IMG/VR virus record: IMGVR_UViG_3300032311_000329
Coordinates: 1 to 39,121 of that record
Length of the DNA stretch: 39,121 nucleotides
Direction: 5' to 3' (one strand)
From: a virus
Shown: positions 14,771 to 21,545 of the stretch, one piece after another
Layout: every line of letters starts with the position of its first letter
How positions within the stretch are numbered: the stretch's first letter is position 1
Position numbers and translations under genes: made by a program
The notes under the pieces: generated by a model
The model's input: the letters and a program-made list of their open reading frames with translations, nothing else
What the model was told of the DNA's origin: nothing
Databases searched by the model: none

Positions 14771-15628
14771 ATGGCTTACATCGGAAATTCTCCCAGTTCA
14801 GCAACATTTGCTATTGACACCTTTAGTGGTGACAATACAACTGTTAACTTCACCTTACGTCAAGCACCATTAGCAACAAGTTCTATTATAGTGTTTGTTG
14901 GTGGTATTCGTCAACAAACAGACTCATATAGTCTTAGCAGTACAACACTTGTATTCTCTGAAGCTCCTCCGTTGGGAACAAATAACGTTGAGGTATTATT
15001 CTTAGGTTTGGGTGCAAGCGCTTCTATTCCATCCGATGGTTCTGTAACAACAATAAAGATTCTTCCTGGTGCAGTAACCGGTGATAAGTTGGGTTTAACA
15101 GCAATTAACGCTAATAACATTGTTGATGGCTCAATTACTGGTAATAAACTAGGCCTGACTTCTATTAACGCTAATAACATTGTTGATGCCTCAATTACTG
15201 GTGCTAAGTTATCATCTACACTTACAACAGGAAACATAAACTTTGTCGGTGCAACTAGTTTCTTGAGCACCGTGTATGAGACTGCAAACGTTTCTACATT
15301 GATGGGTTCAACAACAACTATCAATGTATCTCAACCACTCTTAGTGTTTACTGCCAACTCATCAGCAAACTCAACTGTTAACTTTGTTGGACTTGGTGGT
15401 ATGCCAGTTGGTAATACTGCATCGTTTGTGATTATCAATCCAAACAGTTCAACACCAAAATACATAAGTGGATTCCAAATTGATGGAAGTTCTATTACTC
15501 CAAAATGGGCAGGCGGTGCACCAGCTTCTATTACTCCTGCGAACACAGACATTTACACAGTAACAGTTATTAAAACTGCTGCAACTCCAACATATAACGT
15601 TTTTGCATCTGTACAAAGTTTCTATTAA
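14771..15628 (+). CDS. Short tail fibre, YIGN-type (285 aa)
   Basis: The N-terminal attachment domain (MAYIGNSPSSATFAIDTFSG, N-F-T-L-R-Q-A-P, IIVFVGGIRQQ, L-V-F-S-E-A-PP; residues 1-80) is paralogous to the fibre at 8930. A shaft follows with a 20-residue unit, INANNIVDxSITGxKLG-type, in two full copies and one part (15069-15210). The C-terminal beta domain (about 170-285) includes ANSSANSTVNFVGLGGMPVG. It precedes the first glycine-rich adhesin by two bases and could carry it or alternate with it. Confidence 0.78.
   Translation: MAYIGNSPSSATFAIDTFSGDNTTVNFTLRQAPLATSSIIVFVGGIRQQTDSYSLSSTTLVFSEAPPLGTNNVEVLFLGLGASASIPSDGSVTTIKILPGAVTGDKLGLTAINANNIVDGSITGNKLGLTSINANNIVDASITGAKLSSTLTTGNINFVGATSFLSTVYETANVSTLMGSTTTINVSQPLLVFTANSSANSTVNFVGLGGMPVGNTASFVIINPNSSTPKYISGFQIDGSSITPKWAGGAPASITPANTDIYTVTVIKTAATPTYNVFASVQSFY
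15069..15210 (+). repeat. 60-bp tandem repeat in fibre shaft
   Basis: The sequence repeats with an exact 60-base period, encoding a 20-residue fibre unit. A block of 25 bases (15104-15128) recurs without change at 15164-15188. A third, partial copy follows. Substitutions elsewhere in the unit are partly silent, so the duplication is not brand new. Confidence 0.8.
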
Positions 15629-17091: not shown

Positions 17092-17778
17092 ATGACAAAA
17101 ATGACAACTAAAAAGAAAAATAAATCTAAAAAAGAAGGTATACTTGAAGTTTCTGTACATTTTCCGTGTGCTGTTTACTTGATTGAAAAACCAGAATTTT
17201 TAGAAACAGTTAATAAAATTTCTGAAGAAGGCCTTGAGGCCTCTAGAAAAAACCAAGAAATTGACGAGATTTATCCAGTTGTAATGAGTGGTAATTTTTA
17301 TAATGATTCACGATTGGATGAATTTGCTGAGTTCATCGGTTCAACTGCTTGGAATATCCTAAATGAACAGGGATATGATATGCAAAACCTATCGGTTGGA
17401 TTGTCAGAAATGTGGACACAAGAACACCATAAACATTCATCTATGGAACAACACGTTCATGGAGCAGGTTTGCAAATTATTGGATTCTATTTTTTGGAAA
17501 CACCAGAAAACTGTTCGAAGGTTGTATTCCATGACCCCAGACCAGGCAAAGTACAAATTGATTTACCTGAACAGAATATGTACAATGTTACTCAAGCCAG
17601 TAAGATGGTCAATTTCCAACCAAAACCTGGTTTATTGATATTTGCTAATTCATGGTTACCACATTCATTTAGTAAGCATGCTTCGGATGAACCTATCAAG
17701 TTCGTACATTTCAACTTAACTGTGGTTCCTGCTCAACAAAACTATTGCGACACACCTCCTCAAGCTGAGGTTATATGA
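17092..17778 (+). CDS. 2OG-Fe(II) oxygenase-like protein (228 aa)
   Basis: A lysine-rich start is followed by a jelly-roll oxygenase pattern of the 2OG-FeII_Oxy_5 type: EQHVHG with H121 and H123, GFYFLETPE, FHDPR at 146-150, KPGLLIFANSWLPHSF with H191, and K203 before FVHFN near 203-208. H121/H123 and H191 are the likely iron ligands, and K203 stands where an arginine usually contacts 2-oxoglutarate. The family hydroxylates proteins or small molecules and is frequent in T4-like phages of marine bacteria. It lies between the two glycine-rich adhesins, so a virion protein is a possible substrate (inference). The start overlaps no neighbour. The next gene begins within its stop (ATGA). Confidence 0.8.
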   Translation: MTKMTTKKKNKSKKEGILEVSVHFPCAVYLIEKPEFLETVNKISEEGLEASRKNQEIDEIYPVVMSGNFYNDSRLDEFAEFIGSTAWNILNEQGYDMQNLSVGLSEMWTQEHHKHSSMEQHVHGAGLQIIGFYFLETPENCSKVVFHDPRPGKVQIDLPEQNMYNVTQASKMVNFQPKPGLLIFANSWLPHSFSKHASDEPIKFVHFNLTVVPAQQNYCDTPPQAEVI

Positions 17779-18023: not shown

Positions 18024-18040
18024 GCACTACAGACTAAATA
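18015..18040 (+). promoter_or_regulatory. Late-promoter-like motifs upstream of glycine-rich adhesin B
   Basis: GATAAATA at 18015-18022 and ACTAAATA at 18033-18040 precede the ATG at 18058. The second is embedded in GACTAAATAGG, an 11-base string repeated exactly at 19542-19552 inside the hairpin loop before the gene at 19573. The shared flanks make GACTAAATAGG a better promoter candidate than the octamer alone. Confidence 0.45.
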
Positions 18041-18057: not shown

Positions 18058-19260
18058 ATGCCAATCTCAAGAATTACAGCTAATAGTATTACAGCAAACA
18101 CGATTACATCTGCAGCTCTTGCTACCAGTTCAATTACCGGTGATAAGATTACTGCATACACGATTGGTTCTTCCAATTTAAGTAACACTGGTGTAACAGC
18201 AGGTGTTTACGGAGGCTCAACATCTATTCCAGTTATCACAGTTGATGCTTCTGGACGAATATCAAATACAACTAATGTATCGGTATCAAGTGCTAGTATG
18301 GCAGTTTTTTCCGCAAGTGGAACATGGACTAAACCAGCTGGCGCTACATTTGTTATGGTTGAATTATGGGGTGCAGGCGGCGGCGGTGGTTCTGGAGCAC
18401 GGCAACCTTCTGGAAATCCAAGAGCCGGCGGAGCTGGAGGCGGCGGTGGCGCTCGTGGTACTAGGATGTTTAATGCTGCTAACTTAACATCCACAGTTAC
18501 AGTAACTGTTGGAGCTGGAGGCACTAGCGGTGCATCAAAAACTAGTAATGGAAATGGTGATAGTGGCGGAGTAGGTGGTACAACATCTTTTGGAACATAT
18601 TTTTATATGTATGGTGGTGGGGGTGGCCGAGGTGGTGACAATACTCCTGGTTCACCACCTGGCGGCGGAGGCGGAGGAGGTACAGGTGGATCTGGAAGTA
18701 CCAGTACGAGTAGTGCCTCTTCAGGGGGATACCCTAGAAATTCTTATTTTGGCTCTACTGGCGGTGGTGCTTCCTATTCTGTAGGTGGCGGTGGAGCAGG
18801 TTATCCAGGCGGATCAGGCGGCGGTGTGGCCAGTCCCGGTGGATTAGCTGAATGGGGTGGCGCATCAGGTGGTGGAGGTGCTATAGATGTTACTGCTGGA
18901 GAAGGGGGTGGATCATTATATGGATCTGGCGGTGGCGGTGGCGCTGGCAGCCTTGATGCTAGTGATTTTGCTTACCAATCTGCTGCTGGTGGTACCAGTA
19001 ATTCTTACGCTTCTGGAGGTGGCGGTGCTCGAGGTGTTGGTGACGGTGGTAACGCAACAAGCGGTACAATGGTAGCATCGACCAGTTCAGGATCAGGTGG
19101 TGGCGGCGGAATGAGTGGGAAAAACGTAGATGCAGGCACAGGTGGTAACGGAGGCCAAGGCGGTGGCGGAGGAGGAGGGGGAGGAGCATCTCAAACTCCT
19201 TATAACTCTGGAGCTGGCGGCACAGGCGGTGCAGGTTATGTTCGTATCTACACTTGGTAA
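18058..19260 (+). CDS. Glycine-rich adhesin B (400 aa)
   Basis: Residues 1-85 are a fibre stem: MPISRITANSITANTITSAA, TGDKITAYTIGSSNLSNTGV and YGGSTSIPVITVDASGR, the motif also seen in the fibre at 8930. Residues ~86-105 (GTWTKPAGATFVMVELWGAG) start the tip, followed by about 290 residues rich in GGGGG, SGGGG and GGAGG runs, ending AGYVRIYTW. The last strand parallels GVRIIW of glycine-rich adhesin A, so the two tips share start and end strands but differ in the loops between. This is consistent with glycine-rich receptor-binding tips; the exact receptor cannot be inferred. A chaperone-like gene follows. Confidence 0.8.
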   Translation: MPISRITANSITANTITSAALATSSITGDKITAYTIGSSNLSNTGVTAGVYGGSTSIPVITVDASGRISNTTNVSVSSASMAVFSASGTWTKPAGATFVMVELWGAGGGGGSGARQPSGNPRAGGAGGGGGARGTRMFNAANLTSTVTVTVGAGGTSGASKTSNGNGDSGGVGGTTSFGTYFYMYGGGGGRGGDNTPGSPPGGGGGGGTGGSGSTSTSSASSGGYPRNSYFGSTGGGASYSVGGGGAGYPGGSGGGVASPGGLAEWGGASGGGGAIDVTAGEGGGSLYGSGGGGGAGSLDASDFAYQSAAGGTSNSYASGGGGARGVGDGGNATSGTMVASTSSGSGGGGGMSGKNVDAGTGGNGGQGGGGGGGGGASQTPYNSGAGGTGGAGYVRIYTW

Positions 19261-19285
19261 AAAACATTAAACACGAGAAAATAAT

Positions 19286-19519
19286 ATGAGATATGCAATA
19301 ATTAAAAATGGTGTAGTCGATAATGTAGTTCTTGCTGATGCGGAGTTTGCAGTTGAACAAGGATGGGTTGAATGTCCTGATGCTAGTCCAGGATGGAATT
19401 ATGATGGCACAAATTTTATTAAACCTGATCCAATTCCAGAAATTGTTCCTCAAGTAACAAAAGAAGAATTGTTGGCTCAACTTCAAGCACTTACTGCTAA
19501 AATCGAAGCATTAGAATAA
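19286..19519 (+). CDS. Small fibre assembly-like protein (77 aa)
   Basis: The pattern MRYAIIKNGVVDNVVLAD, EQGWVECPDASPGWNYDG and a C-terminal helix (EELLAQLQALTAKIEALE) is a common small protein encoded next to phage tail fibres, related in plan to fibre assembly chaperones. Residues 1-48 form a small beta unit and 57-77 a leucine-rich helix suited to coiled-coil contact with a fibre trimer. It follows glycine-rich adhesin B directly, which is its likely client. Its stop lies ten bases before the regulatory hairpin. Confidence 0.7.
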   Translation: MRYAIIKNGVVDNVVLADAEFAVEQGWVECPDASPGWNYDGTNFIKPDPIPEIVPQVTKEELLAQLQALTAKIEALE

Positions 19520-19528
19520 CACAGTTCC

Positions 19529-19570
19529 AAACTCCCAGTTTGACTAAATAGGCAGATAAATTGGGAGTTT
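19529..19570 (+). promoter_or_regulatory. Hairpin masking a ribosome binding site, with late-promoter motif in its loop
   Basis: AAACTCCCAGTTT (19529-19541) pairs with AAATTGGGAGTTT (19558-19570): 13 consecutive pairs, one of them G-U. The 16-nt loop is GACTAAATAGGCAGAT and contains ACTAAATA (19543-19550), close to the T4 late consensus TATAAATA. The 3' arm contains GGGAG (19563-19567), the only Shine-Dalgarno sequence for the ATG at 19573. Read-through RNA would bury the ribosome site; RNA started from the loop promoter (about 19556) would lack the 5' arm. T4 genes e and soc use this logic. Confidence 0.7.
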
Positions 19571-19572
19571 AA

Positions 19573-19908
19573 ATGGCCGCTTATTCCGAGATAACGATTG
19601 AACAATACGCATCTTTCTCCTCTACAATCAATGTAGAAGATACTGCTGGTGATGCTATTAATCTATATGGTTATAGCGCATCATCACAACTGCGTAAATC
19701 GTTCTATTCAACAACAGCAACTAATTTCACCGCTTCTGTCACAGGCACAGCAAATGGTGAAGTAACTATTTCCATGACCTCGGCTAATACAGCCAACTTA
19801 ACTCCTGGTCGTTATATGTACGATGTTATTATTACTTCTCCGCAATCTGTGACAACCAGAGTAGTTGAAGGAATTGTGGTAGTATCACCTGGAGTAACAC
19901 ACGTATAA
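19573..19908 (+). CDS. Small Ig-like tail protein (111 aa)
   Basis: A beta-rich 111-residue protein: ITIEQYASFSSTINVEDTAG, L-Y-G-Y-S-A-S-SQLRKS, GEVTISMTSANTANLTPGRY, MYDVII and VVEGIVVVSPGVTHV. This resembles the small N-terminal baseplate/tail domains (BppU-like) found at the base of fibres in many phages. Its ribosome binding site is inside the 3' arm of the upstream hairpin, so its expression is likely gated. The stop overlaps the next ATG by one base (TAATG). It is probably an adaptor between baseplate and fibres (inference). Confidence 0.72.
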   Translation: MAAYSEITIEQYASFSSTINVEDTAGDAINLYGYSASSQLRKSFYSTTATNFTASVTGTANGEVTISMTSANTANLTPGRYMYDVIITSPQSVTTRVVEGIVVVSPGVTHV

Positions 19909-20165
19909 TGGCTATAATAGCTAAAATCAATACAACAGGTTCTATTGGAAGAACAACACTCAACCAGTCAAATAAGACTACGATTGTTTCCAATAATTTC
20001 CGACCAAGACCAAACGTATCTATTAATGAAGTTGGTGGAGTTTCGACAGCGGGTGTGGCGAATGGTTACACTTTTGTTTTTAACTCAACAACAAACACTT
20101 TCGAGGTTCAACCAACAACAGACCTCACAGGCACAATAACAATAATAACTGGGGGCACCTTCTAA
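19908..20165 (+). CDS. Small tail-associated protein (85 aa)
   Basis: The product has MAIIAKINTTGSIGRTTLNQ, SNNFRPRPNVSINEVGGVST and TFVFNSTTNTFEVQPTTDL, and ends TGGTF. The terminal GGTF recurs at the end of the fibre encoded immediately downstream (LQGGTF), hinting at a shared docking or trimer-end motif. Small proteins with this N-x-x-R-P-R plan are seen before fibre genes of T4-like environmental phages; no function is known. Start overlaps the previous stop by one base; the next ATG is the base after its stop. Confidence 0.65.
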   Translation: MAIIAKINTTGSIGRTTLNQSNKTTIVSNNFRPRPNVSINEVGGVSTAGVANGYTFVFNSTTNTFEVQPTTDLTGTITIITGGTF

Positions 20166-21545
20166 ATGGCCAATACTGTAATTCAACTTAAATTTTCCAC
20201 GGTAACCGCAGCGCCTACAACGCTAAACGTTGCAGAACCAGCGTATTCTTATACAAGTAATACGTTATTCATTGGTTCTCCAGCAGGTACCGGTGCAATT
20301 GCTATTGGTGGTAAATTCTACCTTGACCAACAAGCAAACATCTTCAACTTAGTTAACGCTGCGTTTACAACTGCTAATGCGGCAGGAACTTCAACGTTTG
20401 CACAAGACGGTTACACTAAGGCCAACAATGCATTCCATCAGGCAAATGCTGCCTTTGCAGTTGCTAATGCAACTGTATTGATTGATGTTACACAGAACAA
20501 TAGTATTACAGCTGCATTTACACAGGCCAACCTTGCTATATCAAATGCAGGTAGCGCTTCAATTTATGCTAACGGTGCCTTTGCGGCAGCCAATCAAAGT
20601 TTAGCAGTTGACGTTACACAAAACAATTCTATAACGGCTGCATTCACCCGTGCTAATAACTCTATTAGTGCTAACGCAGGCGGTACGATTACTGGCGACT
20701 TGGTAATTACTGGTAACTTTACAGTTAGTGGCGCAACTACTTACGCTAATACAACCAACGTTCAACTTGGTGATAACATTATCACATTGAATGCTGACCT
20801 TCCAGTTTCAGTTGCACCTTCAGAGAACGCTGGTTTCGAAATCAATCGTGGTAATGCATTAGCGAATGCTTCTTTTCTATGGGTTGAAGCTTCTGGTAAA
20901 TGGCAAGCCAACAGCGGTGCTGCAACAGGCGCATACTTTATTGGTTCTGAGTCGAATGGTGTTTATGCTAACGGTGCTTTCATTCAGGCTAATGCCGCAT
21001 TTACAACTGCTAATACGGCTGTTGCAAATGCTGGTGGTGCTTCAATCTATGCAAATGGTGCCTTCGCACAGGCGAATACTGCGGTAGCAAATGCTGGTAA
21101 TGCTTCAATCTACGCAAATGGTGCCTTTGCTGCGGCCAATACTGCTTCGATTTACGCTAACGGTGCTTTTGCAGCTGCTAATAGTGCTTCAATCTATGCT
21201 AACGGTGCATTTGCTAAGGCTAACACAGACTTTACAAACATCGCTATTGCAGCCGCTGATTACGGTTCCGCATCTTCTGTTGCATCATTTAAACTTGAGG
21301 CAAACGGTCGTATCAGTACCGCCAACTCAACTGCTATTGCAATTTCTGCCGCTGCTATTACTTCTGGTACATTAGGTGTTGCTCGAGGCGGTACAGGTGC
21401 TACCACATTCACAACAAACGGTGTCTTGTTAGGTCAAGGTACTGGTGCAGTTTCCACAGCATCGTCTTCAACAGAAGGCCATGTATTGACTATAAATAAT
21501 TCAGGTGTTCCAACCTTCTCTCATTTACAAGGTGGAACATTTTAA
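20166..21545 (+). CDS. Repeat-rich tail fibre A (459 aa)
   Basis: The start MANTVIQLKFSTVTAAPTTL is a fibre attachment type also seen at 22102. The shaft is made of A-F-x-x-AN repeats: TQNNSITAAFTQAN twice (T109, T151) and ASIYANGAFAAAN-type 14-residue units (about 292-354). Between them lies a ~99-residue domain (TITGDL to YANGAF, about 172-270) nearly identical to one in the 1219-residue fibre. The distal part has F-K-L-E-A-NGRIS, GVARGGTGATTFTTNGVLLG and G-Q-G-T-G-AV, a classic phage fibre motif. Periodic small hydrophobics suggest a trimeric shaft. No intramolecular chaperone domain is visible. Confidence 0.82.
   Translation: MANTVIQLKFSTVTAAPTTLNVAEPAYSYTSNTLFIGSPAGTGAIAIGGKFYLDQQANIFNLVNAAFTTANAAGTSTFAQDGYTKANNAFHQANAAFAVANATVLIDVTQNNSITAAFTQANLAISNAGSASIYANGAFAAANQSLAVDVTQNNSITAAFTRANNSISANAGGTITGDLVITGNFTVSGATTYANTTNVQLGDNIITLNADLPVSVAPSENAGFEINRGNALANASFLWVEASGKWQANSGAATGAYFIGSESNGVYANGAFIQANAAFTTANTAVANAGGASIYANGAFAQANTAVANAGNASIYANGAFAAANTASIYANGAFAAANSASIYANGAFAKANTDFTNIAIAAADYGSASSVASFKLEANGRISTANSTAIAISAAAITSGTLGVARGGTGATTFTTNGVLLGQGTGAVSTASSSTEGHVLTINNSGVPTFSHLQGGTF
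21039..21227 (+). repeat. Tandem 42/63-bp repeats encoding YANGAF units
   Basis: Units beginning GCTTCAATCTA(C/T)GC or close variants start at 21039, 21102, 21144 and 21186. The first spans 63 bases and the others 42, encoding ASIYANGAFAxAN with or without a seven-residue insert (AVANAGN). Unit length changes are multiples of 21 bases, so shaft length can change without loss of frame. Confidence 0.78.
21491..21498 (+). promoter_or_regulatory. TATAAATA inside the end of fibre A
   Basis: A perfect late octamer 70 bases before the ATG at 21569, but inside coding sequence where it encodes part of LTINN. It could drive the coiled-coil gene, yet coding constraint and AT-richness could also produce it. 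Confidence 0.3.

Follow-up and report, generated by a model that had tools for sequence, protein, structure and literature searches.

In phage T4, the Shine-Dalgarno sequence of gene e lies in a helix on long RNA, a late promoter is situated within the 5′ strand of this helix, and late RNA lacks that strand. A limited number of genes in T4 and its closer relatives are known to use this switch. T4-type phages also contain PeSL cassettes, in which a promoter and a stem-loop are found at a module boundary, but their promoter is an early one and their stem-loop is not known to be a lock on a ribosome site. Early transcripts reach gene e, where the switch guards against early lysis (PMC3014915). 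Hairpins that contain a late promoter and conceal the ribosome binding site (RBS) are also described for I-TevI, I-TevII, I-TevIII and segB of T4 and for mobE of phage Aeh1, and RBS sequestration is noted for T4 genes 25 and 26 as well (PMC2988022). The late promoter sequence is TATAAATA in T4 and NATAAATA in S-PM2 (PMC2984593).

The window analysed here (39,121 nucleotides, a 39-kb IMG/VR virus record) is tail-region DNA of a T4-like phage, and its neck protein has its closest counterparts in Methylophilales and Pelagibacter phages (Kyanoviridae). A hairpin reading AAACTCCCAGTTTG ACTAAATA GGCAGA TAAATTGGGAGTTT (19529–19570) is found between an ORF of 77 aa and one of 111 aa (Table 1). A sequence-only reading of this DNA had described 13 consecutive pairs, one of them G-U, between 19529–19541 and 19558–19570, a late promoter in the loop, and the GGGAG Shine-Dalgarno of the 111-aa ORF in the 3′ arm. 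We confirm this description in each part and add a 14th pair, so that AAACTCCCAGTTTG and TAAATTGGGAGTTT form 14 pairs of which two are G-U (19538–19561 and 19542–19557). The GGGAG sits five bases 5′ of the ATG. For the 42-base hairpin in isolation the folding energy is −16.5 kcal/mol (z −5.1; equalled by 0 of 200 shuffles), and its 121-nt context gives a z of −2.4. The folding energies of sense and antisense RNA did not distinguish the strands, and a tally of G-U and A-C combinations in relatives was used in their place. The hairpin lacks the U tract that an intrinsic terminator has after its GC-rich stem, and this reading was rejected. Rfam gave no match up to E 1 for 18900–20300, and no further copies of the element were found elsewhere in the same genomes.

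Table 1. Features of the locus in window coordinates
Feature	Position	Strand	Basis or remark
Exposed late promoter ACTAAATAGG, without hairpin	18033..18040	+	before the gene at 18058
77-aa ORF upstream of hairpin	19286..19519		
5′ arm (anti-Shine-Dalgarno), in read-through RNA only	19529..19542	+	sequence, fold, covariation with 3′ arm in relatives
ACTAAATA, variant T4-type late promoter in hairpin loop	19543..19550	+	unchanged in 12 aligned relatives, whose arms vary
Predicted late transcription start	19554..19558	+	from T4 promoter geometry
3′ arm of hairpin	19557..19570	+	sequence, fold, covariation
Shine-Dalgarno GGGAG inside 3′ arm	19563..19567	+	unpaired probability 0.0 at 5/5 bases in long RNA
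111-aa Ig-like tail protein, PHROG "L-shaped tail fiber protein assembly"	19573..19908	+	phrog_3304, E 1e-25
85-aa ORF, start overlapping preceding stop (TAATG)	19908..20165	+	
459-aa repeat-rich ORF, immediately after preceding stop	20166..21545	+	

The 111-aa protein gave a confident Ig-like AlphaFold model (pLDDT 92.5; the input being the window and IMG/VR sequences only), which resembles tail-tip chains of T5 and DT57C (Foldseek: 8hqz_T, E 1e-7; 7qg9_L, E 3e-7) and supports the earlier assignment as a small Ig-like protein. Judged from the spacing of the genes, the 85-aa ORF is likely to be translationally coupled to it, and the 459-aa ORF possibly belongs to the same translational unit. 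In a near relative (L001:3594–4208) an ORF of 204 aa, absent from the window, lies between these two, and by its sequence it is probably a GIY-YIG homing endonuclease. The tail region of the window also carries a 2OG-Fe(II) oxygenase gene (17092–17778).

To quantify the lock, we calculated how much energy is needed to open the start codon and the 15 bases that precede it, for RNA with and without the bases 5′ of the expected late start, and the difference was taken as a switch score. A fold with and without the upstream bases had been proposed by the sequence-only reading. Opening the site costs 12.4 kcal/mol in the long RNA, which has the upstream arm, vs 3.0 kcal/mol in the short one, the difference of 9.35 kcal/mol having a p of about 0.01 against shuffled upstream sequence. 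The score was stable for assumed starts from 19554 to 19559 and insensitive to the length of upstream RNA included. In the short RNA (65 nt; whole fold −5.5 kcal/mol) the Shine-Dalgarno still pairs weakly with early coding sequence, the unpaired probability being near 0.1 at 4 of 5 bases. Among the homologues, which are related and do not give independent counts, 29 of 66 score above 5 kcal/mol.

The loop sequence ACTAAATA differs from the late promoters of both T4 and S-PM2, and its standing was judged in relatives. In the 157-kb relative G001, all nine forward copies of ACTAAATA fall outside ORF cores, in sequence that makes up only 22% of the genome, and the coding-rich strand has 19 copies of CTAAATA vs one on the opposite strand. 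Homologues of gp55, the phage late sigma factor, are present in the relatives G001, G011, G013 and Melnitz-1 (E about 1e-20). From this location bias and these homologues we take ACTAAATA to be a genuine late promoter. It is placed between the two arms, so RNA from the predicted start would lack the 5′ arm. The exposed copy at 18033–18040 shares a downstream GG with the hairpin promoter.

A profile search yielded 596 related stretches, of which 80 loci were used. In nine IMG/VR relatives the element is nearly identical letter for letter, with a different upstream gene in several of them. Among about 70 homologous genes, many share the layout with differing arm sequences, and in seven loci the arms are unrelated to those of the window (L066, AACTCCTGTTTT/AAAACGGGAGTT; L069, CTCCTGTTT/AAACAGGAG; L096, TTAATTCCCCTTTT/AAAAGGGGAATTAA; L111 and its group, CACAC.TTTCCTT/AAGGAGA.GTGTG; and L104, L125 and L139). 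The 3′ arm of L096 and L125 covers the Shine-Dalgarno as well as the start codon. The L080/L087 group has a stem, CCAAGATTG/CAATCTTGG, that covers a TTG start codon instead of the Shine-Dalgarno. A related layout is found in the cultured Melnitz phages of Methylophilales. The hairpin is absent from L010, L065, L075, several cyanophage isolates and many distant homologues.

Where the element is present, the arms change together. In 12 relatives aligned in register, pair 6 is A-U in five, G-U in one, G-C in four and C-G in two; pair 5 occurs as G-U, A-U, U-A and U-G; and pairs 7, 9 and 11 exchange too. Pairs 1–13 of this alignment, whose register was picked for maximal pairing, contain 16 G-U cells and no A-C cell, and a comparison of own with foreign arms served as control: the own arm outdoes foreign arms in most hairpin-bearing sequences and not in hairpin-less ones, and no foreign partner equals it for the window, L061, L096, L125, L104 and L053. 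The covariation, together with G-U in the absence of A-C, shows that selection acts on pairing in the sense RNA. Broken stems, which the sequence-only reading had named as a way to refute it, are thus not what the element-bearing relatives contain, and as pairing is kept despite sequence change we regard the lock as real.

As a control, 81 promoter/start pairs across nine genomes were scanned blind. In T4, e, I-TevII, 26, 49, segB and 51 ranked high, of which e, I-TevII, 49, segB and 26 are cases described in PMC3014915 and PMC2988022, while the known case soc (taken to be the 80-aa ORF at 15573) gave no score. T4 genes 51 and 24 (L175; T4 record 116479 and 107323) also score and are not among the known cases in the available parts of the same two sources. 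The homologue of the 111-aa ORF ranks first in seven of seven environmental genomes, a result that reflects gene specificity and not frequency, since five of them (G011–G015) were chosen mainly for structure at this homologue; other late genes in the seven genomes seldom score. A 346-aa gene of Melnitz-1 (L174:612; record 75111), just 5′ of the baseplate hub/tail lysozyme gene and 3′ of a tRNA, likewise carries a late promoter within a structure that strongly hides its RBS (13.3 kcal/mol).

The switch score of T4 e is 14.5 kcal/mol vs 9.35 for the window. The window differs from e in that its gene is a tail gene inside an apparently late region and its promoter is ACTAAATA; it differs from the I-Tev, segB and mobE cases in that these are homing endonuclease genes, mostly in early or middle units, and not structural proteins. 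The T4 genes 26 and 51 (baseplate hub) resemble it as tail-assembly genes with a promoter-in-structure leader (scores 12.4 and 9.2), but they encode different proteins, and no sequence relation to the hairpin element was found. Taken together, the anatomy, the conserved pairing and the T4 controls give strong support, as regards structure, to a mechanism of the e/soc kind, with its function predicted. RNA entering from upstream would carry both arms, which would pair and bury the Shine-Dalgarno. The late sigma factor would start RNA inside the loop, and on this RNA, without the 5′ arm, the ribosome site would be much more open. The 111-aa tail protein, probably along with the two coupled ORFs, would then be made only from its own late promoter, and the lock probably keeps read-through RNA from making it. 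We consider it likely that the lock limits translation of the tail protein to transcripts from its own promoter; its likeliest purpose would be to insulate a dosage-sensitive gene from upstream transcription.

The strongest competitor, which we think unlikely but deserving of real weight, is that the same switch serves timing alone as in T4 e, early and middle RNA being silent and late RNA translated. This is how the sequence-only reading had understood it, and the anatomy is indeed that of e, soc, 49 and the I-Tev genes as described in PMC3014915 and PMC2988022. The early/late contrast is the weaker part of that claim. The genes upstream of the hairpin are tail genes with late-type promoters of their own, which makes timing alone a weaker account: the exposed promoter at 18033–18040, for example, is a likely source of late read-through RNA, and with such promoters upstream the read-through RNA that reaches the hairpin should be largely late. 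In the sequence, an uncertain guide to early promoters, sigma70-like sites are at chance level and give no sign of them.

A further point against timing is that a terminator takes the place of the hairpin in many homologues. A usable promoter is present in 63 homologues; of these, 17 have only a Shine-Dalgarno hairpin, 19 only an intrinsic terminator, one both and 26 neither. At intergenic loci the two almost exclude each other (Fisher p 0.001, the homologues being related and the counts not independent), and where the upstream ORF abuts, neither is found in any of 13. On the protein tree the hairpin label requires at least eight changes, and hairpin rows stand beside terminator rows (L104 with L093/L094; L096/L125 with L097/L101); an independent-pairs test of the exclusion, short of power because so few pairs were at hand, gave p 0.25–1. 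In L080, L082, L084, L087, L090, L092, L095 and L102 a stem that hides the start codon is preceded, at a distance of about 50 bases, by a strong intrinsic terminator. Start codons are another feature of this gene. Starts other than ATG are found in 29 of 39 genes with a hairpin or terminator vs 10 of 34 others (Fisher p 0.0002, uncorrected for relatedness). The weak starts include TTG, GTG and even an apparent ATC (L069:300, L073:1501, L086:966) or ATT (L100:1501), each preceded by a good Shine-Dalgarno; in these four no ATG, GTG or TTG was found in frame between the ATC or ATT and the upstream stop. The downstream neighbour gene, in contrast, starts with ATG in 72 of 72.

That hairpin and terminator alternate points to a general device for insulation against read-through, the frequent weak start codons suggest dosage control, and together they suggest a low-dose tail gene isolated from upstream transcription. 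We therefore favor insulation and dosage over timing as the purpose of the lock, which would shield a dosage-sensitive tail gene, located where a swapping module borders on its neighbours, from late as well as early upstream transcription. The sequence-only reading had extended the silencing to the coupled genes, and this is plausible as the 85-aa and 459-aa ORFs overlap or abut the preceding gene, but insulation from any upstream transcript fits the alternation better than a switch in time.

It is improbable that the main role of the hairpin concerns the upstream transcript, whose 3′ end it would form or protect as a terminator or RNase barrier, with the overlap of the ribosome site being incidental. 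The hairpin directly follows the upstream stop codon, and true terminators occupy a similar place in other homologues; on the other hand neither the window nor its relatives have a U tract after the stem (GTTTAAATGG, GTTAATTTTGG, GTTCAAACGTGG), a terminator scan omits the hairpin, and the 3′ arm spans the Shine-Dalgarno, the start codon (L080/L087 group) or both (L096/L125). About as improbable is a DNA element, be it an inverted repeat around a promoter to which a dimeric protein binds, or a hot spot of recombination for swaps of upstream modules, comparable to the PeSL cassettes. The upstream gene content does switch at the hairpin edge in several relatives (in L001, L005, L007, L008/L009 and L011, where the upstream genes differ, homology to the window starts 0–11 bases 5′ of the hairpin base), and the hairpin may have a side role in recombination. 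However, the departures from Watson-Crick pairing are G-T and never A-C, as expected of sense RNA only, and the arm sequences vary among relatives, which argues against a fixed protein site. A chance hairpin in AT-rich DNA is a negligible prospect, for while dinucleotide shuffles of the window yield stems of at least 12 pairs about 0.5 times per 39 kb, the placement over promoter and ribosome site, the conservation and mainly the covariation in relatives exclude it.

In searches of published papers with open access, no report of the hairpin element in these phages came up. A design known from T4 is here associated with a single tail gene in a large family of phages from fresh and marine waters, with varied sequences in several lineages and in alternation with terminators. 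Tentatively, and with clearly less assurance than we attach to the lock itself, we propose that this is a widespread insulator in T4-like environmental phages: a dosage-sensitive Ig-like tail gene at the boundary of a swapping module may be translated only from its own promoter, by means, depending on the lineage, of a Shine-Dalgarno hairpin, a start-codon hairpin or an upstream terminator, and in addition of weak starts (TTG, GTG, AUC, AUU), in the service of insulation and dosage and not of timing. The cultured Melnitz-group phages of Methylophilales make direct tests possible. If the insulation reading is true, the element would show how a low-dose structural gene stays stable while neighbouring modules exchange, and it would constitute a compact translation lock gated by a promoter.
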